The translations under genes were made by a program, and so were the position numbers. DNA of 62,735 bases from Nitrospira sp. GTDB lineage: Bacteria; Nitrospirota; Nitrospiria; Nitrospirales; Nitrospiraceae. Below, one piece after another: positions 41,596 to 55,613 of this stretch; position 1 is the first letter of the stretch; each line of letters starts with the position of its first letter. The stretch lies in contig SWDG01000006.1 in assembly GCA_005116965.1 (NCBI GenBank), positions 706,642-769,376 on the forward strand, in the 5' to 3' direction. The notes beneath the pieces were generated by a model. It ran no database searches and was not told the DNA's origin. It worked only from the letters and a program-made list of their open reading frames with translations.

Positions 41596-42096
41596 ATGTT
41601 GACCTGTGGCTGTGGCCGATGGATGCATACGGAAGGGATTGAAGAACGTACCGGCGAACATGGTGCCCTTCAGTGGTTTATCCGTTCGGAATGCAGAGGC
41701 TGTGGACTGAAAGTGGGGGTCGATGTGCCCGGGGAACAGGCCCACGGCCTCGTTGATCGGTTACTCTGGACTGATGAAGCCTTGCATCGATTGGATCGCA
41801 TGCCACCGTATGTGGCTGGGCTGGTTCGAGAAGAAGTGGAGCAGGATATTCGTCGGCAGGGCGAGCGGGTGGTCACATATGAGACGCTGCTCCGTCCCCG
41901 AACTGAGAAGCGCATTGAATGGGACCCGGAGGCGAAACAGCGGTTAGATCGAGTGCCGGCGGCGGTTCGCGCCATGGCACGGATTGAACTTGAGCGTACC
42001 GCGGCCGATCGCGGACTGTCTCGCATCACCGTGTCGCTGATGGAAGAGATCAAAACGAAGTATTTTGGAATGAGCAGCGTGAAACGTGAAACGTGA
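41596..42096 (+). CDS. Protein with two PCP_red-type domains
   Basis: 166 residues. An N-terminal part with CGCG and 'CRGCGLKV' Cys pairs (metal site possible) is followed by two similar helical units, 'WTDEALHRLDRMPPYVAGLVREEVEQDIRRQGERVVTYETL' and 'WDPEAKQRLDRVPAAVRAMARIELERTAADRGLSRITVSLMEEIK'. Each resembles the PCP_red domain of the light-independent protochlorophyllide reductase B subunit (PF08369). The organism shows no photosynthesis genes here, so the domain has another role, perhaps in iron-sulfur handling. The final SVKRET codons lie inside an intergenic repeat. Confidence 0.75.
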   Translation: MLTCGCGRWMHTEGIEERTGEHGALQWFIRSECRGCGLKVGVDVPGEQAHGLVDRLLWTDEALHRLDRMPPYVAGLVREEVEQDIRRQGERVVTYETLLRPRTEKRIEWDPEAKQRLDRVPAAVRAMARIELERTAADRGLSRITVSLMEEIKTKYFGMSSVKRET

Positions 42097-42186: not shown

Positions 42187-43254
42187 ATGCTGCATCGAAT
42201 GGCATTGCGCGTGATTCCTAGCTTGAGCCTGGCGGTGACGGAGGATGCCGTCCGTCGGAAAAAGCGGGTTGTCATGTTTGTGCCCGGACTGATCGCCTTC
42301 GGGGTGTATCGGTTGGCGAAACATCTTGTGCCGATCACCGAGCCCTTGGTCTTGCTGGCGGTCAGCAGCCTCGTCGGAATGGTCACGGCACTCTTGGCCT
42401 ATCGAGTGGGACGTGCAGCATCCTGGTCTGCCATTGTTCGACAGGATGGTCTGAAGATTCTGAGCTGGCTGGGCGGCTGGATCGGAGCCGTGTATGGCGT
42501 TCAACTATCCCTATTGGTGCTCACCCTGTTATGGATTATGCACTACAGCTATCTCCAGCATCCCGATGGGCCGGCTATGATGGCGATCATCATCTCCTGC
42601 ACGTCTGTCGCGCGGGATGCGTTTGAAATTGGTCATGTACGCAAGTTATCAGTGCTGGGGCGTCCATTTTTGACATTCCCGGATGGGGAGCAGCTGCGTG
42701 TGCTGGTGCAACGCCGGGCATGGCAAGTAGGACCGTGGGCTCTCGTAGGACTGAGTCTTGGTGCGCTGACATCGTTGTCAGGGCTGGCTGTTGCGAGTGA
42801 GCAAGGCGCTGCCTTGGCACAACTGGTGACCGTGACGCTTCTCGGGGGAGGCCTTGCACTCTGTGCGTATTTTGGAGGACTCTATCCGGCCAGTTCGTGG
42901 CTGCACTCGCTCCGGCAGACTGCGCCGGGTGAACTGCTGAAGTATTGGTGGTGGCCTGGGATGGCCTTTGCGTCGACCTATTATTTGGTGGCGATGGGTG
43001 TGTTGTTGTTTGTCGTCCGTCAGCCGATGATGACGGTGGGTGCCACGGCAGTGATGGGTGCGCTGGTTACGGCGATGATGGCGGTGTATGGGTACTATCT
43101 CGGTGATCGGCGTCATGTCGAGGATGAGCAGGCGCCACAATTGTCGCCTGGCATGTTACGGTGCCCGTTTATGATGGGAATTCTTGGGAAGTCGATTGGT
43201 GCTGACGGTGCGGCTGGGGGCTTCGCGCTCGGCAAGACTGGAACGAAGGGGTAG
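42187..43254 (+). CDS. Polytopic membrane protein of the respiratory island
   Basis: 355 residues, about eight membrane spans ('VMFVPGLIAFGVYRLA', 'WLGGWIGAVYGVQLSLLVLTLLWIM', 'MAIIISCTSVARDAFEIGHVRKLSVLG', 'WWPGMAFASTYYLVAMGVLLFVV'). The intramembrane 'ARDAFEIGH' has conserved-looking acidic and His residues. I do not recognise a family. It ends 4 bp before the start of bd-like oxidase copy B, so it is almost certainly co-transcribed and may help assemble or complete that complex. Confidence 0.7.
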   Translation: MLHRMALRVIPSLSLAVTEDAVRRKKRVVMFVPGLIAFGVYRLAKHLVPITEPLVLLAVSSLVGMVTALLAYRVGRAASWSAIVRQDGLKILSWLGGWIGAVYGVQLSLLVLTLLWIMHYSYLQHPDGPAMMAIIISCTSVARDAFEIGHVRKLSVLGRPFLTFPDGEQLRVLVQRRAWQVGPWALVGLSLGALTSLSGLAVASEQGAALAQLVTVTLLGGGLALCAYFGGLYPASSWLHSLRQTAPGELLKYWWWPGMAFASTYYLVAMGVLLFVVRQPMMTVGATAVMGALVTAMMAVYGYYLGDRRHVEDEQAPQLSPGMLRCPFMMGILGKSIGADGAAGGFALGKTGTKG

Positions 43255-43258
43255 AGAT

Positions 43259-45136
43259 ATGGGCCGAGGATTCATGATGATGGCACGTTCCTCGATTGCC
43301 GTTGCGATGGGCATCGCGATGGTTGCGATCGTCATGGGGGTTGCGTGGAATGGACCCGATCTGTCATTCGCGGAATCATCGACGGATGTGTACTTCGGCA
43401 CGGAGGGGACTCCGCAGGGACCGGCGGCTCCTGCTCCTGATGAAACGGTCTATCCCAGAATCGGTTCGTTAGACAGTCGGCTGCTGGTGTGGTTTGTGAC
43501 ACAGCAGCATACCTATTTCGGAGGATTTGTGCTCGCCCTGCCGTTGTTTTGCGCGTTGCTCGAGTTCCTTGGGCTACTCACCAAGAAGCCGGCACTGGCC
43601 CTTCGCTATGATGGTTTGGCAAGGGATCTCGCAAAGGTGGCGGTCTTGGCCCTGTCGGTGACCGCGCTCATCGGCAGCCTGATGTTGACGATGTTCATCA
43701 CGCTGTATCCCAGTTTTATGAAGTATATGGGCGGAACCTTCAAAGGGTTCATGCCTGCCTACGCGGCTGTATTTGTGGGAGAATCGCTGCTCCTGATCGT
43801 CTATTACTACGGGTGGAATCGGATGACGGGTCGGGGCATGAAGTGGATCCACGCCGCGATCGGGATTCTGACCAACATTGTGGGAACCGCGTTATTGATG
43901 ATGGCCAATGCCTGGTCGGCCTTCATGATGTCACCCGCTGGGGTGGATGCGCAGGGGCGGTTTCTGGGAAATGCCTGGCATCTGCTGCACTCCGCGCTCT
44001 GGAACCCGCTGAACGTCCATCGCTTCCTTGCGGACATTATGTCCGGTGGGGCGGTGGTGTTGGCCTATGCCTGTTATCGGTTTTTTACCAGCAAGACCGA
44101 CGAAGAGCGAGCCTATTTCGATTGGGTCGGCTATGTCTTCCTGTTTGTCACCGTCTGCGCGCTTATTCCCATGCCCTTCGCCGGCTATTGGCTGATGAAA
44201 TCGGTGTTCGTGTTTCGACAGACCATGGGTGTCACGATGATGGGTGGCTTGCTCACCTGGCTGTTTGTGGTTCAGGCACTCTTGATCGGCGTTCTGTTTT
44301 TGGGGATTAATTACTATCTATGGCAGAGCATGGCGCGGATCAAAGGTGGTGAGCGCTATCAGCCCTATTATCAATTCTTATTGGGGGTGTTGATGCTGGC
44401 GCTCTTCGTCTGGCTGACGCCGCACACGCTGCTCACGTCTGCCAGTGAAGTCAAGGCGATGGGAGGTGCTCAACATCCCGTGATCGGCAACTATGGAGTG
44501 ATGTCGGCCAAGAACGGAGCGGTCAATATCCTGATCCTCGTTACGGCCTTGAGCTTTTTGTACTATCGTCGGGCGAATCGCACGATGACCATTTCCTGGG
44601 TCAAGACCGGGAATACGCTCCTCACGGTGTTGTACGTGGTCGGGGCGCTCAATATCATCTGGTTGTCGATCTACGGGTTTTACTTGCCGGCGAAGGTACG
44701 TGTCGGCCTGTCCGCACCCCAGGCCTTCACGACGTTCACGGTAATCCTAATCGGTGTGGTGATGAACCGCCTCATGCTTCGAGGAGCGGTGGTGCACGGC
44801 CCGATTCAGTGGGGAAAAATTCCGCTGCGCGGCATGGTTGGATTGTTTGGGTTGGCGGCGTCTTTTAGTTGGGTGATGGGCTTGATGGGATACATTCGTT
44901 CATCAGGACGGTTGTCATGGCATATCAGTGAGTTGATGGCTGATGTCTCGCCCTGGGCCTTCACCCCAGACCTTCAATACGCCACGAAAATGGTGACGCT
45001 GAACATGGTGGTCTTTTGGGCAGCCGTCTTCGCGTTGTTCTGGATGTGTGAGCGAGGGCAGCAGCCGGTGATGGGGGAGGAATTCCAGGAGGAACAGGTG
45101 CCGTTGCTGTCGCCGGTTCCATCGCGAGAAACATAG
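43259..45136 (+). CDS. Cytochrome bd-like oxidase, copy B
   Basis: 625 residues from the ATG at 43259; the frame opens earlier inside the preceding gene. A signal/anchor segment is followed by about 14 membrane spans. It is homologous along its length to copy A at 48.7-50.6 kb. His residues shared by both copies: 'FVTQQHTYFGG', 'KWIHAAIGIL', 'WHLLHSALWNPLNVHR', 'TPHTLL', 'GAQHPVIGNYGVMSAKNG', 'LSWHISEL'. The first half is CydA-like; Nitrospira genomes are known to encode such oxidase-like proteins. It is presumed to bind hemes b/d-like and reduce O2, not shown here. Confidence 0.85.
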   Translation: MGRGFMMMARSSIAVAMGIAMVAIVMGVAWNGPDLSFAESSTDVYFGTEGTPQGPAAPAPDETVYPRIGSLDSRLLVWFVTQQHTYFGGFVLALPLFCALLEFLGLLTKKPALALRYDGLARDLAKVAVLALSVTALIGSLMLTMFITLYPSFMKYMGGTFKGFMPAYAAVFVGESLLLIVYYYGWNRMTGRGMKWIHAAIGILTNIVGTALLMMANAWSAFMMSPAGVDAQGRFLGNAWHLLHSALWNPLNVHRFLADIMSGGAVVLAYACYRFFTSKTDEERAYFDWVGYVFLFVTVCALIPMPFAGYWLMKSVFVFRQTMGVTMMGGLLTWLFVVQALLIGVLFLGINYYLWQSMARIKGGERYQPYYQFLLGVLMLALFVWLTPHTLLTSASEVKAMGGAQHPVIGNYGVMSAKNGAVNILILVTALSFLYYRRANRTMTISWVKTGNTLLTVLYVVGALNIIWLSIYGFYLPAKVRVGLSAPQAFTTFTVILIGVVMNRLMLRGAVVHGPIQWGKIPLRGMVGLFGLAASFSWVMGLMGYIRSSGRLSWHISELMADVSPWAFTPDLQYATKMVTLNMVVFWAAVFALFWMCERGQQPVMGEEFQEEQVPLLSPVPSRET

Positions 45137-46203: not shown

Positions 46204-46226
46204 GTACTTTCGTTAAAGAGGTGCTC

Positions 46227-47138
46227 GTGGAAAACAAAGGGGTCTTAGTCGGGTCCATCGTCTTTGTGTTTACATCGTTCTTTCTCATGATTGGTCTGCT
46301 GGCCTATGAGTCCTATAAGGCAAAGCAGATGAAACAGCTCGCGGCCTCAGTGAAGTCAGAAGCTCGACCGACGGCGAGTGGTCTGCCAGCTCAGGATTTC
46401 TCGATGTATAAGACGAAAATGGGTGATGAAGGCCGGGAGATGGTTCAGATCCCGGAAGGTCCGTTTACGATGGGGAGTCATGATGGTGATCCAGACGAGG
46501 CTCCGGAGCATCAGGTCTACCTGAAGGGATTCTACCTCGACCGAAAAGAAGTCACACAAGAAGAGTATACGCGGTTCGCGAAGATGACCAAACGAGCGAT
46601 GCCGAGAATCGAGGTGTTCGACGATGATCAGTCAAAGATCTTGAAGCCGGAGTTTGCGGCGATGAGCGTCTCGTGGGACGAAGCGGGTGCCTACTGCAAG
46701 TGGGCCGGTAAGCGACTATCCACAGAAGCTGAGTGGGAGAAGGCCGGGCGTGGCGAGAGCAAGCGAAAATATCCGTGGGGGGAGAAGTTTGTCACGACCG
46801 CTGCCAATGTCGACGGCAGCGAGGACGGATATAAATACATCGCTCCACCTGGGTCGTTCGACGGGGGACGAAGCCCCTACGGCCTCTATGACATGACGGG
46901 CAATGTCGCTGAATGGGTCGAGGATTCCTATGACGAACACTACTACAAGAAGTCACCATTTAGAGACCCCAAGGGACCGGAGAATGCTGATCTCAAAGTC
47001 GTGCGCGGCGGCTCATGGCGGGAAACGGAACATAATGCAAGATTGTCAAAGCGTTTTACCGCGAAACATTGGCGGACGGATGTAACGATTGGTATTCGCT
47101 GTGCGAGCGATCTTGATCAAGCAGGAGGGGGCTCCTGA
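46227..47138 (+). CDS. Membrane-anchored formylglycine-enzyme-like protein, first copy
   Basis: 303 residues from the GTG at 46227 (AAAGAGG 5 nt before; another GTG lies at 46221). One N-terminal membrane span is followed by an FGE-sulfatase (SUMF1) domain: 'MVQIPEGPFTMGSHDGDPDEAPEHQVYLKGFYLDRKEVTQEEYTRF', 'WAGKRLSTEAEWEKAGRG', 'YPWGEKF', 'PYGLYDMTGNVAEWVEDSY', 'VVRGGSWRETEHNARLSKR', 'GIRCA'. After 'GGSW' the copper-binding Cys pair of true formylglycine-generating enzymes is missing, so sulfatase activation is unlikely; a structural or ligand-binding role is more probable. Confidence 0.8.
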   Translation: MENKGVLVGSIVFVFTSFFLMIGLLAYESYKAKQMKQLAASVKSEARPTASGLPAQDFSMYKTKMGDEGREMVQIPEGPFTMGSHDGDPDEAPEHQVYLKGFYLDRKEVTQEEYTRFAKMTKRAMPRIEVFDDDQSKILKPEFAAMSVSWDEAGAYCKWAGKRLSTEAEWEKAGRGESKRKYPWGEKFVTTAANVDGSEDGYKYIAPPGSFDGGRSPYGLYDMTGNVAEWVEDSYDEHYYKKSPFRDPKGPENADLKVVRGGSWRETEHNARLSKRFTAKHWRTDVTIGIRCASDLDQAGGGS

Positions 47139-47151
47139 GTCTTAGCCCGGC

Positions 47152-48099
47152 ATGCTCGAATCAAAATTTAAATTCGTCTTTCTGCTTGTGGTGCTAGCGT
47201 GTGCGGCTATGCCAATCGTCGCCATAATGCGAGGTACTATTTCGACTCCGTATGAAGCGTCGATGCCTGGAGCCAGTGCTGACATTGAGTCGGCACCCGA
47301 GAGCATTCCCGGGGAGGAGCCTATTGCGGATGAGATGGTGACGATTCCGGCGGGGCCGTTCGTTCGTGGCACCGAGAGCGGGGGGTTTGATGAGGGGCCG
47401 CAGCGAACCATCCACTTGGATGCGTTTTCTATTGATCGGTACGAAGTGACGAATCATCACTATCAGCAGTTCATCTCGGCGACCGGCCATCGGAAGCCAG
47501 GGTTGCCTGCGCGTTACGCCAAGAGCGGTGGAAGGGTGAAGGGAACCAATCAGCCGGTCGTCTACGTCTCGTGGGATGATGCCACGGAGTATTGCCGCTG
47601 GAAAGGGAAGCGACTCCCGACGGAAGCGGAATGGGAAAAGGCGATGCGAGGCGGAGACGGAAGGCTCTGGCCGTGGGGGACTAAAGAGCAGGCCAGTGGT
47701 GCCAATTGGGCCAGGGTGCAGGATGGGTACGAGGTATCTGCGCCTGTGGGGAGCTTTCAGTCTGATACGAGTCCCTATGGCGTAATGGATGGAGCGGGGA
47801 ACGCCATCGAGTGGGTGGACGATTGGTATGATGAAACATACTACAAGCGCTCGCCGGAACAGAACCCACCGAGCCCCGAGTATGGCACCTATCGGGTGCT
47901 TCGCGGCGGAGGGTATACGACGACCGGAGGTGATGTTCGAATTACCAGTCGAAGCAAGATGATGCCTGACTTTCGAGATGAAACAATTGGATTTCGCTGC
48001 GCGATTTCGAAGGCGGGAATGAGAGAAGAAGAAAAGAAAAATCAGGATGTAGTTACAGAAAATCAAAGTGGTAGAGGATCAAAAACACGGCCAAAATGA
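47152..48099 (+). CDS. Membrane-anchored formylglycine-enzyme-like protein, second copy
   Basis: 315 residues, starting 13 bp after the first copy and clearly paralogous. A hydrophobic N-terminus (FVFLLVVLACAAMPIVAIM) is followed by 'MVTIPAGPFVRGTESGGFDEGPQRTIHLDAFSIDRYEVTNHHYQQF', 'WKGKRLPTEAEWEKAMRG', 'LWPWGTKE', 'PYGVMDGAGNAIEWVDDWYDETYY', 'VLRGGGYTTTGGDVRITSR', 'GFRCA'. It too lacks the catalytic Cys residues. The final ~30 residues are charged and disordered. Antisense to its 3' end lies a 34-codon membrane micro-gene. Confidence 0.8.
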   Translation: MLESKFKFVFLLVVLACAAMPIVAIMRGTISTPYEASMPGASADIESAPESIPGEEPIADEMVTIPAGPFVRGTESGGFDEGPQRTIHLDAFSIDRYEVTNHHYQQFISATGHRKPGLPARYAKSGGRVKGTNQPVVYVSWDDATEYCRWKGKRLPTEAEWEKAMRGGDGRLWPWGTKEQASGANWARVQDGYEVSAPVGSFQSDTSPYGVMDGAGNAIEWVDDWYDETYYKRSPEQNPPSPEYGTYRVLRGGGYTTTGGDVRITSRSKMMPDFRDETIGFRCAISKAGMREEEKKNQDVVTENQSGRGSKTRPK

Positions 48100-48157
48100 T
48101 ATTGACAACCATTCCGACCAAAACTATAATGTCAAACACTTTTGAGTTTTTCGTCAC
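48053..48157 (-). CDS. 34-residue single-span membrane protein (antisense micro-gene)
   Basis: Minus-strand GTG at 48157, preceded at ideal distance by AGGAG (CAGGAGAAACC-GTG), encodes MTKNSKVFDIIVLVGMVVNI...LILYHFDFL: a short charged head, one hydrophobic helix and a His/Asp tail. Its 3' end overlaps the 3' end of the second FGE-like gene by 47 bp. The ribosome site and clean hydrophobic profile support a real gene; no family is known to me. Confidence 0.5.
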   Translation of the reverse strand: MTKNSKVFDIIVLVGMVVNIILAVFLILYHFDFL

Positions 48158-48190
48158 GGTTTCTCCTGTTTTTTTGTGTGTGCGCGACAA

Positions 48191-48264
48191 AATTTTGATA
48201 ACACAGGGTCTTGTACCTGTCAAGTAATGCGGAATGCGTCAGTTCTGATTTTTTATCAAAAATT
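48191..48264. promoter_or_regulatory. AT-rich dyad upstream of the copy A oxidase operon
   Basis: AATTTTGATAA (48191-48201) and TTATCAAAAATT (48253-48264) are inverted with one slipped base. Between them is TTGTAC-N17-type spacing toward ATGCGT that could be a promoter. It lies between the divergent micro-genes and directly before the operon of copy A. Inference from position and symmetry. Confidence 0.3.
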
Positions 48265-48288
48265 ATCTTAATCGGGAGTACGGCAACA

Positions 48289-48411
48289 ATGGCAACGGTG
48301 GCCCCTGACAGCGAAATTAAAGTAAAAATCGGGAAGATGATTTTCTACATCACCTGTGCTGTTGGATTATGGTTTTTCTACTGGTTTGCCGGTATCCAGT
48401 GCCCCTGTTGA
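48289..48411 (+). CDS. 40-residue single-span membrane protein
   Basis: From the ATG at 48289 (CGGGAG 11 nt upstream): MATVAPDSEIKVKIGKMIFY...WFFYWFAGIQCPC. It has a hydrophilic head, one aromatic-rich membrane helix and a C-terminal CxC. Size and topology resemble accessory micro-subunits of terminal oxidases such as CydX or CcoQ, without sequence identity to them that I can show. First gene in the copy A oxidase operon. Confidence 0.6.
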   Translation: MATVAPDSEIKVKIGKMIFYITCAVGLWFFYWFAGIQCPC

Positions 48412-48492
48412 GTTGAAGGTCTTGTGTAGTTGCCAGAAGGGGCGGTACGGTTTAATCAACGGCTGGACTTGGTGGCAGAGGAGAAGAAAGAA

Positions 48493-48624
48493 ATGAGTGC
48501 GCTGAATAATCCTGTTGTTGCAGTGATTGTCTCTCTTATTATCTCGGTTGGTTATTTTGTTTTTGTCGATCACTATCTTATGGATATGCAGGGGTTGGAT
48601 TTCTGGTATCTCTTCCGGAACTAA
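48493..48624 (+). CDS. 43-residue single-span membrane protein
   Basis: From the ATG at 48493, preceded by GAGGAGA (48478-48484): MSALNNPVVAVIVSLIISVG...MDMQGLDFWYLFRN. One membrane helix (VVAVIVSLIISVGYFVFV) then a short amphipathic tail with DHYLMDMQGLDFW. It lies 72 bp before the oxidase start and 81 bp after the 40-residue micro-gene. A likely small subunit or assembly peptide of the oxidase complex; inferred from location. Confidence 0.6.
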   Translation: MSALNNPVVAVIVSLIISVGYFVFVDHYLMDMQGLDFWYLFRN

Positions 48625-48696
48625 ACCTCTGAGGGTGTGGTCGGACATTGCTAGTAGTTTGTGAATCTTAACGTAAGGGTATCAAGGAGGTATTCC

Positions 48697-50613
48697 ATGG
48701 GCCTTTTAGCCGGCAAGCGCGTCTTTTCAATTATGGCGCTCTGCATGATGGTTGGCCTCCTTCTGCTTCCGATCGTCGTAGCGTTGCCTTCACTGGCAAT
48801 CGGTGAAGAGGCTCCTGCTGGCGATGCGGCTAAGAAGGATGGGGACAAGGTTGAAAAGGGTCGAGATGTCTATTACAAAACCGAAGGCATTGTCGTCGGT
48901 GCTCCCGCCCCTAAAACGGTGGATGGTCCAAGGGACTACCCGCGATACAACTTTGAAAGCCGTGTATTGCTCTGGTTTGCCAATCAGCAGCATCTTTATT
49001 ATGGCAGCTTCGTATTGGCTGTGCCGATCTTCTGCATGATCATTGAGTTTATGGGTGTCGTGACGAAGGATAAGGCGCTCGCCAAGCGTTATGATCAGTT
49101 GGCGTATGATTTTATAAAGATCAGTCTTACGGCCTACTCTCTCACGGCCATTCTCGGTGGTATTCTGATCTTTACCTTCCTGACTTTGTATCCGGCGTTT
49201 TTCTCTTATCTGTCAGGTATTTTCCGTCCTGTCATGCACATCTATGCATTGATGTTTGTGGCTGAGAGCGGGACTCTCTACATCTACTATTACGGTTGGG
49301 ACAAGATGAAGGAGGGGTTCCTGAAGTGGATTCATCTGAGCATGTCGGTGATCTTGAATATCATCGGCACATTGCTGATGTTCTTGGCGAACTCCTGGAT
49401 TGGTTTTATGATGTCGCCTGCCGGCGTCGATGAGCAGGGTCGGTATCTTGGAAACATCTGGCACGTAATTCATACAGCCTTATGGAACCCTCTCAATCTG
49501 CATCGCATCCTTGGTAATATGGCCTTCGGTGGTGGTGTTGTTGCTGCCTATGCCGCCTACAAATTTTTAGCATCCAAGACCGATGAGGATCGAGCTCATT
49601 ATGATTGGATGGGCTACATCGCCATGGCGCTCGGTGTGGCATTCTTGATTCCTCTGCCATTTGCGGGATATTGGCTCATGCGAGAAGTGTATGCCTATCG
49701 TCAGCAGATGGGGATCACGCTGATGGGTGGACTCCTTGCTTGGTTGTTCATCATCCAGGCTACGATGATTGGGATTCTGTTCCTGAGCACTAACTATTAT
49801 CTCTGGCAAGCCATGGGTCGTATGCGTGGTGCTGAAAAGTACCAACGCTATATTAAGTACCTTGTTTTTATCCTTGCCTGTGGATACATGGTCTTTATTA
49901 CTCCTCACACAATGGTCATGACCCCGGCGGAATTGAAGGCCATGGGAGGCCAGCAGCATCCTGTTCTTGGAAATTATGGAGTCATGTCGGCGAAAAACGG
50001 TGGGATCAATGTCATTATTACAACCACTGTATTGAGTTTCGTCTGGTACATGAGGGGGAATAAAGTTTCCACTGTATCGTGGGCGAAATTCGGTAATATT
50101 TTTATGGGAATATTTTTCGCCTGCGCCTACTTCAATATTATTTTCCTGGCCGTATATGGGTATTACATTCCAGCAAACGTTCGCGTTGGTTTGTCTGTTC
50201 CTCAGGTGGCGACCACCTTATCATGTCTCTTCTTCATGTTTGCCCTCAATAGCGTCATGATGAAGGGAGCCAAGCAATTAGGGCCGATTGAGTGGGGCAA
50301 GATTTCAGCCCGGTCTCAGTACGCGCTTATTATGTTGGCAACGGCCTTTACTTGGATGATGGGATTGATGGGTTATATTCGCTCGTCCGTCAGGCTGTTC
50401 TGGCACGTCAATGAGATCATGAGAGATAACTCACCATGGGCTTATACTCATACGGTGGGGTTTGCGGCCAACATGATTTCATTTAATGTTTTGTTTTTCT
50501 GGATCACGATCCTATTTGTCTTCTGGCTTGGCAGCTTGGGTGCGAAGAAGGTTCCAGTTGAATCTAAAGCTGGAATCCCTGGAAGCATCCCGCAGCCGAT
50601 TGCCAGTCATTAA
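48697..50613 (+). CDS. Cytochrome bd-like oxidase, copy A
   Basis: 638 residues from the ATG at 48697, seven bases after AAGGAGG (48684-48690). A signal/anchor segment (FSIMALCMMVGLLLLPIVVALPSLA) precedes about 14 membrane spans. Candidate heme/copper ligands, all shared with copy B: 'ANQQHLYYG', 'LKWIHLSMSV', 'WHVIHTALWNPLNLHR', 'ITPHTMV', 'GGQQHPVLGNYGVMSAKNG', 'LFWHVNEI'. The 'MMSPAGVDEQGR' loop recalls the CydA W-M-Q/P-x-G region. It is followed immediately by three heme-c proteins, supporting a cytochrome-c-driven oxidase rather than a quinol oxidase. Lower GC and codon use differ mildly from copy B. Confidence 0.88.
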   Translation: MGLLAGKRVFSIMALCMMVGLLLLPIVVALPSLAIGEEAPAGDAAKKDGDKVEKGRDVYYKTEGIVVGAPAPKTVDGPRDYPRYNFESRVLLWFANQQHLYYGSFVLAVPIFCMIIEFMGVVTKDKALAKRYDQLAYDFIKISLTAYSLTAILGGILIFTFLTLYPAFFSYLSGIFRPVMHIYALMFVAESGTLYIYYYGWDKMKEGFLKWIHLSMSVILNIIGTLLMFLANSWIGFMMSPAGVDEQGRYLGNIWHVIHTALWNPLNLHRILGNMAFGGGVVAAYAAYKFLASKTDEDRAHYDWMGYIAMALGVAFLIPLPFAGYWLMREVYAYRQQMGITLMGGLLAWLFIIQATMIGILFLSTNYYLWQAMGRMRGAEKYQRYIKYLVFILACGYMVFITPHTMVMTPAELKAMGGQQHPVLGNYGVMSAKNGGINVIITTTVLSFVWYMRGNKVSTVSWAKFGNIFMGIFFACAYFNIIFLAVYGYYIPANVRVGLSVPQVATTLSCLFFMFALNSVMMKGAKQLGPIEWGKISARSQYALIMLATAFTWMMGLMGYIRSSVRLFWHVNEIMRDNSPWAYTHTVGFAANMISFNVLFFWITILFVFWLGSLGAKKVPVESKAGIPGSIPQPIASH

Positions 50614-50688
50614 TCGACCGTGGTTGTTGCTAGTCAGCTCAATGGTGGGGGTTCAGTCCACGCATTGTAGCTGTAGGAGGTCAAGACC

Positions 50689-51993
50689 TTGGGTAACTTA
50701 ATTGCAGAGGCAGTCTCTATGGGCTGGATGGCTCTAGCCATCCTAGCCGGACTATTGGTTTATTTTCAGATGTCCATCAGTGAGCCTGCGGCAAAGAAGC
50801 GTGCTGTTTTCAAGACATTCATCGGTATTGTTGCGACGCTCTTGCTGTTTATGGCTATCGCCAACTATGCGAATAATTTCTACGGTCAAAATCGGCTCTT
50901 GCCAGTGTCACTGGTGATTATCACTGTAGGCACCTTCGTCATGGCGCTGTATTTCACCAATCTCAGTGCTCTCCTGAAGATCGGTGGGGTGATGTTCTTT
51001 GTCGCTGCGTTTCTATCAGGCTATGGAAACTGGCTTCCTCAAGTCGAGGGTGGTTTCCCGCCGGTAGAGGAAAAGAAGACGTGGGATTCGATGACCCCAC
51101 AACAGCTAGCCGATGAAGGTGAAAAGATTATCTTCGGAGGTGTTGGGAAGAATAAAGAGCAAGGCGCAATCGGGAAGGGCCAATGTCCGCTCTGCCACGC
51201 ATTCCATGCCGGCATGTTGGGCGAACGAGCGCCAAATTTAGCGGGACTCCCTGGGCGAGGGAAAGAGCGATTAGAGGATCCCAAGTATTCCAAGGGTAAT
51301 CCTTCTAAGCGGGAATATGAGGCGAAAGAAGCCTTCCCAGGCTCGGGAACTGCAGAAAATGGCCAAGAGTATATTGCGGAATCGCACGCATGCCCTAGCT
51401 GCTATGTTGTCGCTGGGTATGGGGTAAAGGGGACGAATGATAAGCAAAGTCCAATGCCTTCTATTCATAAGCCGCCTATCTCCCTCAGCCTTCCAGAGCT
51501 TGCGGCTGTGGATACCTGGATGTATTTGCGCGAAGGAATAGACGCTCCGTCGTTTGAAGAGATCGTAAAGTCGTACGAGAAGTTTATTCCAGAAGCAGAT
51601 CGTCCTAAGCAGGCTGATGAAAAGCCTGCGGGAGCCACATCTCTGTTGGCAGATGGATCAGAACCGATTGACCAGATCTTTGCCAAAGGACAATGTATTT
51701 CATGTCATACGATCCCTGGCATCCCAGGAGCGGTGGGAACCATCGGGCCTAAACTGGAGGAAGGGACAACAGCTCCGCAGCGTATTAAGGATCCCACCTA
51801 TAAGGGAACAGCCAAGTCACCTACCGAATACATTATGGAGTCTATCGTAGACCCTAGTGCCTTTGTGGTGAAGCCGTTCCCAGATAACACGATGCCGAAA
51901 ATCTTTGGACAAAAGCTGAGTGCTGGCGCGTTGAAGAAAATTGTCGATTATTTGTCTCAGGTGAAAACCGGAGCGCCTCCACCAAAAATATAG
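50689..51993 (+). CDS. Membrane-bound multiheme c-type cytochrome
   Basis: 434 residues, TTG start eight bases after AGGAGG. Four N-terminal membrane spans (about 10-125) are followed by two cytochrome c domains: 'GKGQCPLCHAFHAG' and 'AKGQCISCHTIPG', each with distal Met ('SPMPSIHKPP' and 'DNTMPKIFG'). A third cysteine pair, 'HACPSCYVVAGYG', has Tyr where the heme-binding His should be. It likely docks to the bd-like oxidase and delivers electrons in the periplasm. It is 75 bp after the oxidase gene. Confidence 0.88.
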   Translation: MGNLIAEAVSMGWMALAILAGLLVYFQMSISEPAAKKRAVFKTFIGIVATLLLFMAIANYANNFYGQNRLLPVSLVIITVGTFVMALYFTNLSALLKIGGVMFFVAAFLSGYGNWLPQVEGGFPPVEEKKTWDSMTPQQLADEGEKIIFGGVGKNKEQGAIGKGQCPLCHAFHAGMLGERAPNLAGLPGRGKERLEDPKYSKGNPSKREYEAKEAFPGSGTAENGQEYIAESHACPSCYVVAGYGVKGTNDKQSPMPSIHKPPISLSLPELAAVDTWMYLREGIDAPSFEEIVKSYEKFIPEADRPKQADEKPAGATSLLADGSEPIDQIFAKGQCISCHTIPGIPGAVGTIGPKLEEGTTAPQRIKDPTYKGTAKSPTEYIMESIVDPSAFVVKPFPDNTMPKIFGQKLSAGALKKIVDYLSQVKTGAPPPKI

Positions 51994-52038
51994 TAGCCTC
52001 CGAGTGTCTGTCATGCGGAGAGTAAAGGGAGTTTGCCG

Positions 52039-53076
52039 ATGAAAGCGTTGATGTCGCTCGGTGCCCTGATCGGAGTGGCTGGTCTTCTCCTTCTGGGCGG
52101 AATGGTTCTGGATGTCGTGCCTTCAACCTACATACGGTTGGTGGAAGGCTACATGCCGATTCAAATGCTGCTCGAAGTGGCATGCTATGTGATCGGCTTT
52201 ACGGGATTGAGCTATACGTTGAATGCCATGGGTATGGCTATTCCACGGTTTTGGCAGGGCATCGGTTTCTGGGTATTTTTTCTGCTCTATCTGAAGTACC
52301 GTATGTACCCGCCTATCCCATTCAGCGTGCGAGCAATGTATGGCACAGTGTCATTGGTGGCCGTCTTCATGTGGGTCTCTGCTAGTGAAGAGGACTGGCA
52401 GAAGTTTAAGCAACCCATCATGAACGTTCTTGATGCTCAGACAGGGGGGAACCGGCTCTTACGGTATCTCTATCTTGTGCTCCTGCCGATTCTCATTGGC
52501 GGATTTTCATTTAATGCCATGATGCCAAAGTCGGAGGAACCAATCGAGTTGCGAACGGTTCATCCAGCACCACCTGCAAGTACTAAGGTCCACGGGAAGA
52601 CCTACACATTACAGACCTCTCAGAACCCCTATCGTGTGAACCCAGAAGGGAAGTACGATCAAGAGTTCAGCAATGCCAATATTGTTGAGCAGGGTATGGG
52701 GCGTTTGATGAAGCCCAATGCCAACCCGTGGGATGATAAAAATCAGGGCTATCTAAAGTATGTGCGCGAGGGTGGTGAAATATTTTATCAGAACTGCCAT
52801 TTTTGCCATGGTGATAATTTGAATGGTCGAGGGCTCCACGCCTTCGCCTTCAATCCAATTCCAGCGAACTTTACCGATCCAGGCACCATCGCACAGCTGC
52901 AAGAAACATTTATCTTTTGGCGTGTTTCGAAGGGTGGAATTGGGTTACCCAACGAAGGGTTCCCTTGGGCATCAGTTATGCCACCCTGGGAGCAACACCT
53001 GACGGTGGATGAAATTTGGAAAGTTGTTTTGTTTGAATATTGGCACACCGGCTACTATCCGCGAACCTGGGATTAG
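52039..53076 (+). CDS. Membrane-bound monoheme c-type cytochrome
   Basis: 345 residues from the ATG at 52039 (AAAGGGAG upstream; TTG at 52033 also possible). Five membrane spans ('LMSLGALIGVAGLLLLGGMVLDVV', 'MLLEVACYVIGFTGLSYTL', 'GIGFWVFFLLYL' ...) precede a cytochrome c domain: 'GGEIFYQNCHFCHGDNLNGRGLHAFAFNPIPANFTD' with the CHFCH heme site and distal Met in 'SVMPPWEQHLT'. The 'CHGDNLNGRGxxA' form resembles the single-heme modules found with molybdoenzyme and oxidase complexes. It lies between two other heme-c genes. Confidence 0.87.
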   Translation: MKALMSLGALIGVAGLLLLGGMVLDVVPSTYIRLVEGYMPIQMLLEVACYVIGFTGLSYTLNAMGMAIPRFWQGIGFWVFFLLYLKYRMYPPIPFSVRAMYGTVSLVAVFMWVSASEEDWQKFKQPIMNVLDAQTGGNRLLRYLYLVLLPILIGGFSFNAMMPKSEEPIELRTVHPAPPASTKVHGKTYTLQTSQNPYRVNPEGKYDQEFSNANIVEQGMGRLMKPNANPWDDKNQGYLKYVREGGEIFYQNCHFCHGDNLNGRGLHAFAFNPIPANFTDPGTIAQLQETFIFWRVSKGGIGLPNEGFPWASVMPPWEQHLTVDEIWKVVLFEYWHTGYYPRTWD

Positions 53077-53091
53077 TCGCCATTATTCCTT

Positions 53092-54906
53092 ATGAATGCC
53101 AAACCAAACATAATGAAGATTATGAGGCCAAACATGATGGACAGTATAACTCAGAAGGCCGGGATCATCGCGGCTGTTGCCTTCGGAGTGGTTCTAGTGT
53201 CGAGTGCAGGGTATTCCTCAGTATCTGCCCAAGGGCTTCCCGAGGGTTTTAAGAAAGGTGATCTTTCGCCTGAACCATCAGCAGACATGATTGAAGCAGG
53301 GAAGCGAGTCTATTTCACCAAGTGCGTGTGGTGTCACGGAGTGGATGGAGCCGGTGATGGACCTGGAGCCGACCGGCTTTGGCCACGCCCGCGGAATTTC
53401 AATCAAGGCACATTCAAAATTCGCCATACTGCAAGCGGCGAACTCCCACTCTTCGATGCTAAGAAGCCTATAGCTGGGCAAAATGATCTGTTTGAAACGG
53501 TCACGCATGGATTGCCGGGTTCTGCTATGCCACCTTGGGAAGGTATTTTGAGCGAGGAACAGCGCTTACAAGTCCTCTCTTTTGTGACGACTCAACTCGT
53601 CAAAGACCGAAAGTTTACCGACAAGCAGTCAGAGACACAGACGATTTTACAACTCGCAGACCTTAAGCCTAAACCCGCCACTGACGAAAGTAAGAAGCGG
53701 GGTAGCGAGTTGATCGTAGAGAAAAAGTGTGTCGAATGTCATGGAATGGAAGGGCGTGGCGATGGAAACGCCTTCAATTTAAAGGATGACTGGGGTTTCT
53801 CGATCCAACCAGCTAATTGGCATAAGTGCTGGAACTTCAGGGGGAGTCGTCAAGATCCGTACAATGTTGCCAACATCTTCCGTACTTTTTCTACAGGTGT
53901 AAATGGCACACCGATGCCATCGTTTGCGGATAACACGACCGTCGATGAACGGTGGGATATCGCCAACTTTGTCAGTTCGCTGTGTGAAAGAGATACACTG
54001 GGTAATCCACTGCCCATTGATCCATTAACCGATAAGCCTAAAATCAACTTTGTCATCCCCTCAGATCTCGTTGAGGGGGAAATCCCGGCTGACATTGAGC
54101 ATGAGGCCTGGCAAAAGGCTCCAAAACGAATTGTGGCGATGGGGGGGCAAATCACCCATAAGCCAAGAAACTTTGTGAATCGAATCGACGATATGTGGGT
54201 TCGGTCGCTCTACAATGACAAATATATTGTCTATCTCCTTGAGTGGGATGATCGAACGAAGAGTGTCGCCGAAGGGAAGCTCCCGTGGGCTCCAACTCAG
54301 GTCAATATCGATGTTAAAGAGCAGGACCCTAAGACTGGCGAGGAGGGGTCAATCGCAGCAAAGCAAAATAATTACACGCTCTACAACGATGCAGTTGCTA
54401 TTGAGACCGCAGTGAAGTGGAAAGAATTACCGGCTCCAATTAAGCCGCGCTATTTGTTTGGGACGAACGACCAATTCCCAATGGATATAGTGAAGTGGGA
54501 GGCGGACGGCTCCCTTCGTGCCTTTAAAGGTACGGGCTGGGATAAGGATTTTGAAGAACGCGATAATTATGAAGAGGCCATGAAGCTCGTAAAGAGCGAA
54601 TGGAAGAATGGGCGCTGGTATGTGATGATTCAGCGGCCTGTAGGAAATAAGAAGGACCAGGATTATGACGAAGACACCTTTTTTGAGGTAGGACAGTATA
54701 TTCCTACCGTCTTCTTTGCCTGGGACGGTCATAATGGAGATGCAGGACGAAAGATGGCTGTCTCCGCATTTTACTACACGTTCATGAATCCGCCTGTTCC
54801 TCAGGAAACGTACATCTATCCGGTTGTCATCGCTGTCGGTGTGGTACTGCTGGAGGGCTGGGTTCTGACTCGTCGCGCAAACAGGAAAAAGGGGAAGACG
54901 CTGTAG
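53092..54906 (+). CDS. Diheme cytochrome c fused to an NxrC/EB_dh-type heme-b domain
   Basis: 604 residues as written; the Met at 53134 (GAGG six bases before) gives a cleaner signal peptide (AGIIAAVAFGVVLVSSAGYSSVSA) and may be the true start. Two heme-c sites: 'VYFTKCVWCHGVDGAGDG' and 'IVEKKCVECHGMEGRGDG', each with MPP/MPS-type distal Met. The C-terminal half ('PADIEHEAWQKAPKRIVAMGGQ...DDMWVRSLYNDKYIVYLLEWDD...YLFGTNDQFPMDIVKWEADG') resembles the ethylbenzene-dehydrogenase/NarC-like heme-b domain of the nitrite oxidoreductase gamma candidate NxrC. A final membrane anchor follows. It may connect NXR with the oxidase. Confidence 0.85.
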   Translation: MNAKPNIMKIMRPNMMDSITQKAGIIAAVAFGVVLVSSAGYSSVSAQGLPEGFKKGDLSPEPSADMIEAGKRVYFTKCVWCHGVDGAGDGPGADRLWPRPRNFNQGTFKIRHTASGELPLFDAKKPIAGQNDLFETVTHGLPGSAMPPWEGILSEEQRLQVLSFVTTQLVKDRKFTDKQSETQTILQLADLKPKPATDESKKRGSELIVEKKCVECHGMEGRGDGNAFNLKDDWGFSIQPANWHKCWNFRGSRQDPYNVANIFRTFSTGVNGTPMPSFADNTTVDERWDIANFVSSLCERDTLGNPLPIDPLTDKPKINFVIPSDLVEGEIPADIEHEAWQKAPKRIVAMGGQITHKPRNFVNRIDDMWVRSLYNDKYIVYLLEWDDRTKSVAEGKLPWAPTQVNIDVKEQDPKTGEEGSIAAKQNNYTLYNDAVAIETAVKWKELPAPIKPRYLFGTNDQFPMDIVKWEADGSLRAFKGTGWDKDFEERDNYEEAMKLVKSEWKNGRWYVMIQRPVGNKKDQDYDEDTFFEVGQYIPTVFFAWDGHNGDAGRKMAVSAFYYTFMNPPVPQETYIYPVVIAVGVVLLEGWVLTRRANRKKGKTL

Positions 54907-54944
54907 CGTTTCATAACGACGCGCTTCAGCGCAGCAAGAAGATG

Positions 54945-54978
54945 GAGGGGGTGGGGAAACCTACCCCCTCTTTTTTTT
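54945..54978 (+). terminator. Rho-independent terminator of the respiratory operon
   Basis: GAGGGGGT (54945-54952) pairs with ACCCCCTC (54963-54970), followed by eight T (54971-54978). It ends the transcript containing the oxidase and cytochromes. Confidence 0.9.
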
Positions 54979-54995
54979 AGACAGGTTATGTTTTT

Positions 54996-55613
54996 ATGAT
55001 CACTGATGTGACAGGTGTTCTGCTGGCTGGCGGAAAAAGTAGGAGGATGGGAGAAGACAAGCGATTCATCCTTGTTGGTCAGGAGACTCTCTTTGATCGG
55101 AGCTTGACGGTTCTCCGTGAATTGTTTGAGGCGGTATGTGTCGTCATCGCTCAAGATAGCCCGCCACTGCAAGCGGACGTGCCGGTGGTCCGTGATCTTA
55201 TGCCGGACTGTGGGAGCCTTGGTGGATTGTACACGGGGCTTCGACTGGCCAAGACCCAACATATCTTCGTCGTGGCCTGCGATATGCCATTTCTCAGCCC
55301 GCATGTCATACGGCATATGGTTCAACTAAAAGATCAGGCTGATATTGTCATCAGTCGGTGGGCGACTCGTCTTCAGCCAACCCATGCGGTCTATGGCAGA
55401 AACTGCCTTCCAGTTATTGAGGAAATGATGACTCTCCATAATAGGAAGATTCACAGTATGGTCAGCCATCCATCTCTTCGCATATGCGTAGTGCCTGAGA
55501 CAGAGATCAGGCACATCGACCATGAAGGGCGTTCCATGTTCAACATCAATACGCCATCTGATTTGGAACAGGCTCGATCAGTGTCTGATCCTGGTATGGG
55601 GATTGGGTCGTAG
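54996..55613 (+). CDS. mobA: Molybdenum cofactor guanylyltransferase
   Basis: 205 residues. 'VTGVLLAGGKSRRMGEDKRFILVGQETLFDRSL' is the nucleotide-binding signature of MobA, and 'LGGLYTGLRLAKTQHIFVVACDMPFLSPHVI' the catalytic Asp region. It attaches GMP to molybdopterin to form the bis-MGD cofactor used by DMSO-reductase-family enzymes such as nitrite oxidoreductase, which fits the expected metabolism. It starts 18 bp after the terminator. Confidence 0.92.
   Translation: MITDVTGVLLAGGKSRRMGEDKRFILVGQETLFDRSLTVLRELFEAVCVVIAQDSPPLQADVPVVRDLMPDCGSLGGLYTGLRLAKTQHIFVVACDMPFLSPHVIRHMVQLKDQADIVISRWATRLQPTHAVYGRNCLPVIEEMMTLHNRKIHSMVSHPSLRICVVPETEIRHIDHEGRSMFNINTPSDLEQARSVSDPGMGIGS

Follow-up and report, generated by a model that had tools for sequence, protein, structure and literature searches.

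An operon in Nitrospira may encode one membrane complex that passes electrons between cytochrome c or nitrite oxidoreductase (NXR) and quinone by reverse electron transport. We assign this reading a probability of roughly 45% and favour such an electron-transfer complex over an oxygen reductase. The operon, at 48289-54906 on the plus strand of the 62,735-nucleotide stretch analysed here (hereafter the window), comes from a Nitrospira sp. genome of 3.7 Mb, where it lies on contig C6, and centres on a cytochrome bd-like protein, which shows 100% identity to its counterpart in the metagenome-assembled genome Nitrospira sp. CG24B. That its products form one complex is well supported by comparative sequence data: gene order is conserved across classes, two of the subunits are fused in loci L205 and L206, and the micro-genes at the head of the operon co-occur with it. 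For Nitrospira, a dominant group of nitrifiers, the operon bears on the electron route from nitrite (potential about +0.4 V) to quinone and NADH and on the identity of the bd-like protein that reduces O2.

Layout of the operon

Six co-directional genes follow one another on the plus strand, with gaps of 15-82 base pairs in the open reading frame (ORF) listing of the window. Two encode single-helix membrane proteins, micro1 (48289..48411; 40 amino acids, WFFYWF motif) and micro2 (48493..48624; 43 amino acids, LMxxQGLDYxYLFR motif). They are followed by the bd-like core, which we call copy A and which corresponds to bd-like_3 of N. moscoviensis (48697..50613), a membrane-anchored diheme cytochrome c (50689..51993), a five-span monoheme cytochrome c (52033..53076), and a diheme cytochrome c fused to an EB_dh/NxrC-like heme-b domain (alt_NxrC_2; 53092..54906) that ends in a hydrophobic segment. 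A promoter matching the sigma-70-type consensus at 12/12 positions (TTGACA-N17-TATAAT, plus strand, 48102..48130) precedes the genes, and an intrinsic terminator with a 12-pair hairpin and a T-run (plus strand, 54944..54978) follows them, in agreement with the single transcription unit proposed in a preliminary description of this DNA. Such a terminator lies downstream in 69 of 81 orthologous loci, and Rfam gave no match across 47900-55100. The preliminary description had counted seven genes at 48289-54906; their shared direction stands, but only six lie on the plus strand, and it missed a seventh, small gene on the minus strand, micro3 (48053..48157). It was right that this stretch holds no CydB-like ORF. 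Overall, its observations were confirmed in part and its interpretation was partly supported.

Conserved micro-proteins

Judged by their substitution patterns, micro1 and micro2 are genuine genes under strong purifying selection. Their ratios of nonsynonymous to synonymous polymorphism (pN/pS) are 0.09 and 0.25 in frame, against 1.05-1.76 in the other two frames, and their conservation across Nitrospirota bears out the two micro membrane proteins described earlier. Among loci at ≥85% identity, 107 of 108 have both genes ahead of the core; so do 36 of 36 at 55-70% and each of the 9 loci tested where another class has this operon, with loci from one genome partly counted twice. Profiles built from Nitrospirales alone recovered most micro-genes of other orders in the correct place and on the correct strand (best E values 2e-8 for micro1 and 7e-14 for micro2).

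A census of 198 whole Nitrospirota genomes found each of the two genes in 70. Every micro2 is single-copy and beside the operon (Fisher p ~6e-52, uncorrected for phylogeny); two matches sit on broken contig ends, and in the operon genomes without a match, G091 and G179, the core is at contig edges or fragmented. Micro1 departs from this pattern through a second copy in G143, a match in G035 where no core was detected and a weak match in G059, and it falls under the threshold in two operon genomes, G181 and G183. Neither gene was found beside the second bd-like gene of the window (copy B), the paralogues on contig C27 or the solitary copy-A paralogues, some of which adjoin nxrA. The preliminary description had proposed testing whether the micro-genes accompany copy A; across Nitrospirota they travel almost exclusively with this operon. 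No Pfam or NCBIfam family exceeded its cut-off for any of the three micro-proteins, so we set aside known small oxidase subunits such as CydX as their identity.

Micro3 encodes a 34-amino-acid single-helix membrane protein (MTKNSKVFDIIVLVGMVVNIILAVFLILYHFDFL) from a GTG start with AGGAG upstream, and it is antisense to the operon promoter, which lies inside its coding sequence. A profile search seeded with it detected relatives at all 119 Nitrospirales loci, at all 4 from a further family and at all 15 from other orders. These relatives almost always run opposite to the operon; in other classes (L202-L204) micro3 shares its strand and stands directly ahead of micro1. Outside the promoter boxes its pN/pS is 0.073. 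All 96 Nitrospirales upstream regions have the promoter without a mismatch (shuffled sequences average a best match of 8.5 of 12), and its boxes are invariant in 81 of 81 distinct sequences. Third codon positions of micro3 show 0% variation within the boxes, against an average of 20% elsewhere in the gene. The two elements also occur apart in several loci of other orders, including L181, which has a perfect promoter at -462 and micro3 at -2346; in some other-order loci no promoter was found with the TTGACA-N17-TATAAT pattern. Because third positions in the boxes are invariant, and because several other-order loci with micro3 elsewhere have a perfect or near-perfect promoter close to micro1, we rejected the idea that the promoter is a coding coincidence of micro3. 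A promoter inside an antisense gene offers a clean example of dual constraint.

The bd-like core

Translation of copy A probably begins at the ATG at 48697, behind AAGGAGG, rather than at the GTG at 48661. Pfam matches PF01654 to the protein at 3.3e-20, confined to residues 100-347, and the AlphaFold model (predicted local distance difference test score 88) contains the whole CydA fold, with 14 long membrane helices after a signal-like N-terminal helix. In structure comparison (VIA), ten CydA chains aligned to the model over 344-358 residues at Z 31-36, with Z 35.5 given for the full CydA fold; the next folds were ActF and ActC of alternative complex III, at Z 20-23. The equivalents of E. coli CydA H19, E107 and H186 are kept in 100% of 122 aligned copy-A sequences, and those of H126 and R448 are kept as well, so the earlier account of a 14-span bd-like protein with conserved histidine sites holds.

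Other canonical positions have changed. Across the 122 copy-A orthologues E99 is replaced by Y, and M393 and E445 mostly by L, the last two columns resting on a distant alignment. These replacements recur in all three paralogue groups and thus cannot tell an oxidase from a non-oxidase. Copy A lacks the Q-loop of the canonical quinol bd oxidase, the model placing membrane helices between the CydA-like halves; the available portions of PMC3578206 likewise state that bd-like proteins have no Q-loop. Copy A carries QH in 122 of 122 sequences where the NIDE0901-like paralogue carries HH in 38 of 38. Relatives from other classes (~50% identical, same operon) mostly have H at the position of this Q, which reduces the difference from a disproof of oxidase function to a hint. 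In clustering, the core groups with those paralogues in its own genome that resemble OR-N1 and OR-N2; the OR-N family is said to have been presented as a CydA group by Murali in 2021.

Heme-c proteins and the NxrC-like subunit

The cytochrome previously taken for a four-span multiheme protein is a diheme one, with two CxxCH motifs; its CPSCY is not such a motif. Its heme domains find their best Protein Data Bank match in Kuenenia Kustd1711 (7zs0), whose hemes lie near +350 mV (PMC11791136). The five-span monoheme cytochrome c has the single CxxCH expected of it, and its c domain ranks near ActE of alternative complex III and cytochrome c552. Fusion of a diheme cytochrome c to an NxrC-like domain is likewise upheld by two CxxCH motifs and a match to PF09459 (EB_dh; 3e-9, 37.7 bits, above the curated cut-off of 33.3). 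By sequence scoring this alt_NxrC_2-type protein is a relative of NxrC and not NxrC proper, since TIGR03477 reaches 55.9 bits, below its curated cut-off of 169.85.

At L205 and L206, which belong to another class, the monoheme cytochrome c and the NxrC-like protein are joined in a single polypeptide (749 and 765 residues, respectively) with three CxxCH motifs. Elsewhere, L200 (G119 C5:38745-57000) has a tandem pair of bd-like genes flanked by genes resembling those of the diheme and monoheme cytochromes c, and no CxxCH was found in the monoheme-like protein there.

Distribution and link to NXR

The order bd-like, diheme c, monoheme c, NxrC-like is kept throughout class Nitrospiria and in several other classes, which places its conservation well beyond this genome. 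Solitary core paralogues stand directly before nxrA in L230, L231 and L233. The distant relatives at L217 and L219 encode, in one gene run, a bd-like protein, two cytochromes c, a NarJ-like chaperone, an NxrA homologue, NxrB and NxrC. The operon core is also present in 20 of 20 sampled same-class genomes outside Nitrospirales, in which NxrA had 0 of 20 matches, and for this reason we rejected an NXR-specific operon. A link to NXR, which the preliminary description had raised as a possible supercomplex, is supported by nxrA adjacency but is not exclusive.

Two side observations concern gene content. Genomes G309 and G355 (family f4 of the order) hold the operon and an OR-N1-like gene, with no NXR or NIDE0901-like match and, in G309, no heme-copper match either. 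At the distantly related L212 and L214, a set of bd-like, two cytochrome c and diheme-EB_dh genes is clustered with the copper-enzyme maturation genes for NosD, an ABC transporter and NosL.

Neighbouring genes and paralogues

Two membrane-anchored proteins with FGE-sulfatase domains (PF03781) are encoded upstream of the operon (plus strand, 46221..48099) and are candidate accessory genes. The pair, with its N-terminal hydrophobic segment, precedes the operon in 79 of 79 Nitrospirales loci, and at least one such protein does so in 17 of 17 other-order loci (including L181-L198). One FGE-sulfatase-domain protein is also found upstream of the nxrA-adjacent bd-like paralogue at L231 and L233. Copy B (bd-like_4; plus strand, 43184..45136) is 51% identical to copy A and has no micro-genes of its own. 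A PCP_red-domain protein at 41596-42096 of the window recurs near bd-like clusters in L193, L204, L205, L215, L218 and L219.

Elsewhere in the host genome, L239 (G000 C27:50000-69000) encodes in one run an OR-N1-like bd protein, a cytochrome c, cytochrome b genes, an OR-N2-like bd protein, two cytochromes c, an EB_dh protein and a diheme cytochrome c. A canonical cydA/cydB pair is also present; at L086 (G000 C6, ~508444-509732) cydA is read in two frames on either side of a run of N, with cydB following, and is probably interrupted by an assembly gap or masked stretch, not broken as a gene.

Proposed mechanism and alternatives

From the observed parts, gene order, fusion, nxrA adjacency, micro-protein conservation and fold, we infer a membrane complex whose core would be the 14-helix CydA-superfamily protein, binding b-type heme and lacking the quinol loop of cytochrome bd. 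The two membrane-anchored cytochromes c, with three hemes c, and the diheme/heme-b NxrC-like subunit would make up a periplasmic electron relay, and two or three single-helix micro-proteins would pack around the core, by analogy with CydX in cytochrome bd. A high-potential periplasmic donor, which would be nitrite via NXR in Nitrospira and other donors in NXR-free relatives, would feed the NxrC-like subunit. Electrons could then pass through the c hemes to the b hemes of the core and on, at a putative quinone site, to the quinone pool, driven by proton-motive force; the path is possibly reversible. This cytochrome c/NXR-quinone reading draws on the homologous set in the Kuenenia nxr cluster, with Kustd1711 near +350 mV (PMC6423088, PMC11791136), on the replacement of the E. 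coli quinol-bd ligands E99, M393 and E445, and on the likeness to ActC/ActF and ActE.

Several points weigh against it. No quinone site was identified in the core, and Lucker et al. (PMC3578206) remark that the bd-like protein has none of the canonical quinol-binding residues. The retained H19, E107 and H186 are an oxygen-reductase requirement too, and the modelled resemblance to ActC/ActF may stem from a helix bundle common with CydA. The NXR-free occurrence of the operon makes the NXR link non-obligatory. The genomes with distant bd-like clusters carry dsrA, and most also hold heme-copper-superfamily genes, for which reason we dropped an argument for anaerobic function from these relatives; they supply no evidence of it, and Kuenenia, taken from the literature, is the only anaerobic case used here. 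A fuller version has proton-motive force drive a cytochrome c:quinone reductase, coupled to NXR and derived from a re-purposed bd core, and gives it three obligatory single-helix micro-subunits, one of them antisense and sharing codons with the promoter. Such a respiratory complex would be of a previously undescribed type; taken whole, we consider this version doubtful.

The preliminary description suggested a cytochrome-c-fed bd-type core, and in this reading a reductase of the OR-N type would reduce O2 at high-spin b hemes of the core with NXR electrons relayed by the c hemes. The CydA fold with its kept H19, E107, H186, H126 and R448 equivalents would suit this, as would the proposal that OR-N CydA proteins are cytochrome c oxidases (PMC10839748, PMC12342949) and the strong transcription of the cluster in N. 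moscoviensis recorded in the available part of PMC6606698. Yet Kuenenia, an anaerobe, has a homologous set within its nxr cluster (PMC6423088, PMC3578206), Y and L stand at the positions of E. coli CydA E99 and E445, and the terminal oxidase role has been assigned to the NIDE0901-like OR-N2 protein with OR-N1 (PMC12342949), where HH takes the place of QH, a distinction softened by the H of most other-class same-operon relatives. The oxidase gains no support over its rivals, and we regard it as somewhat unlikely.

The operon could instead provide a membrane anchor and wire for NXR or other periplasmic oxidoreductases, handing electrons to soluble cytochrome c and a separate OR-N1/OR-N2 oxidase with no quinone or O2 chemistry of its own. 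An anchor role is suggested in the accessible text of PMC6606698 and would fit the hydrophobic C-terminal segment of the NxrC-like protein, the three further c hemes, the adjacency to nxrA and the C27 module, where bd-like proteins likewise occur together with cytochromes c and an EB_dh protein. A 14-helix heme-ligating core exceeds the needs of a wire, however, and its conserved glutamate/histidine set suggests proton-coupled chemistry; we rate this alternative as distinctly unlikely. As for the micro-proteins, all are very short, and the overlap of micro3 with the promoter gives nucleotide conservation a second cause, so instead of being subunits they might serve in regulation or assembly, or be mere by-products of a leader region that is itself conserved. 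The pN/pS values of 0.09, 0.25 and 0.07 for micro1, micro2 and micro3 argue otherwise, as does protein similarity that holds where promoter and micro3 are separate or micro3 is on the other strand; we judge a non-subunit role quite improbable.

The operon offers a defined parts list with three small proteins easily overlooked by standard annotation and proteomics. A purified or reconstituted complex, or a cryo-electron microscopy map with unexplained single helices, becomes interpretable, and one can now test directly what a long-debated respiratory complex is made of. Both the fusion and the operons that include nxrA connect the complex with NXR-type enzymes; its NXR-free occurrence shows it to be a more general module that is not nitrite-specific.

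Comparison with known systems

With the cytochrome bd quinol oxidase CydABX the operon has in common the CydA fold, H19/E107/H186 and small single-helix partners. It differs in having extra helices in place of the Q-loop, replaced E99/M393/E445, no CydB in the operon and c-type hemes. Alternative complex III resembles it in core fold (ActC/ActF), in the monoheme c (ActE) and in the proposed quinone-cytochrome c chemistry; the operon has no gene for an iron-sulfur/molybdenum-cofactor-like ActB subunit or a pentaheme ActA. The NIDE0901-like OR-N2/OR-N1 CydAA' module on contig C27, the proposed Nitrospira terminal oxidase (PMC12342949), combines a paralogous core (~42%), cytochromes c and an EB_dh protein as the operon does, but has cytochrome b genes, separate EB_dh and diheme c proteins, HH in place of QH and no micro-genes. 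In the anaerobic anammox organism Kuenenia, the nxr cluster kustd1699-1713 contains diheme, monoheme and diheme cytochromes c and a CydA-like protein (kustd1709-1712; PMC6423088). It matches the operon in joining a CydA-like protein to heme-c partners, among them Kustd1711, and differs, as compared here from the literature, in being encoded alongside NXR in an anaerobe.

The operon belongs to the bd-like_3/alt_NxrC_2 cluster, having a bd-like gene, two membrane cytochromes c and alt_NxrC_2 together with a second bd-like gene nearby. N. moscoviensis (L066) matches all four large genes and their order, at 91, 81, 87 and 85% identity, and its bd-like_4 corresponds to copy B. Lucker 2010 is reportedly among the sources on this four-gene cluster. 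The available portions of PMC6606698 report it for N. moscoviensis (bd-like_3, two cytochromes c and alt_NxrC_2, with bd-like_4 nearby) as highly transcribed and propose an NXR anchor or a reverse-electron-transport complex; those of the Nitrospina paper (PMC3578206) give 14 helices, a missing quinol site and a possible role like that of alternative complex III. The protein family was thus known, as the preliminary description had it, but its composition was not uncharacterised, the four-gene cluster having been described in 2010-2019 as far as these portions (PMC6606698, PMC3578206) show. The available text on the N. moscoviensis cluster (PMC6606698) mentions neither the micro-genes nor the antisense gene and is silent on the promoter overlap and on the fusion of subunits; the micro-genes seem new within the open papers searched. 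New here are the conservation of micro1 and micro2, the antisense micro3 over the promoter, the fusion of the monoheme cytochrome with the NxrC-like protein, the bd-like genes that elsewhere adjoin nxrA or share an operon with it, and the presence of the operon in all 20 sampled genomes of the class outside Nitrospirales, none with a detectable NxrA.

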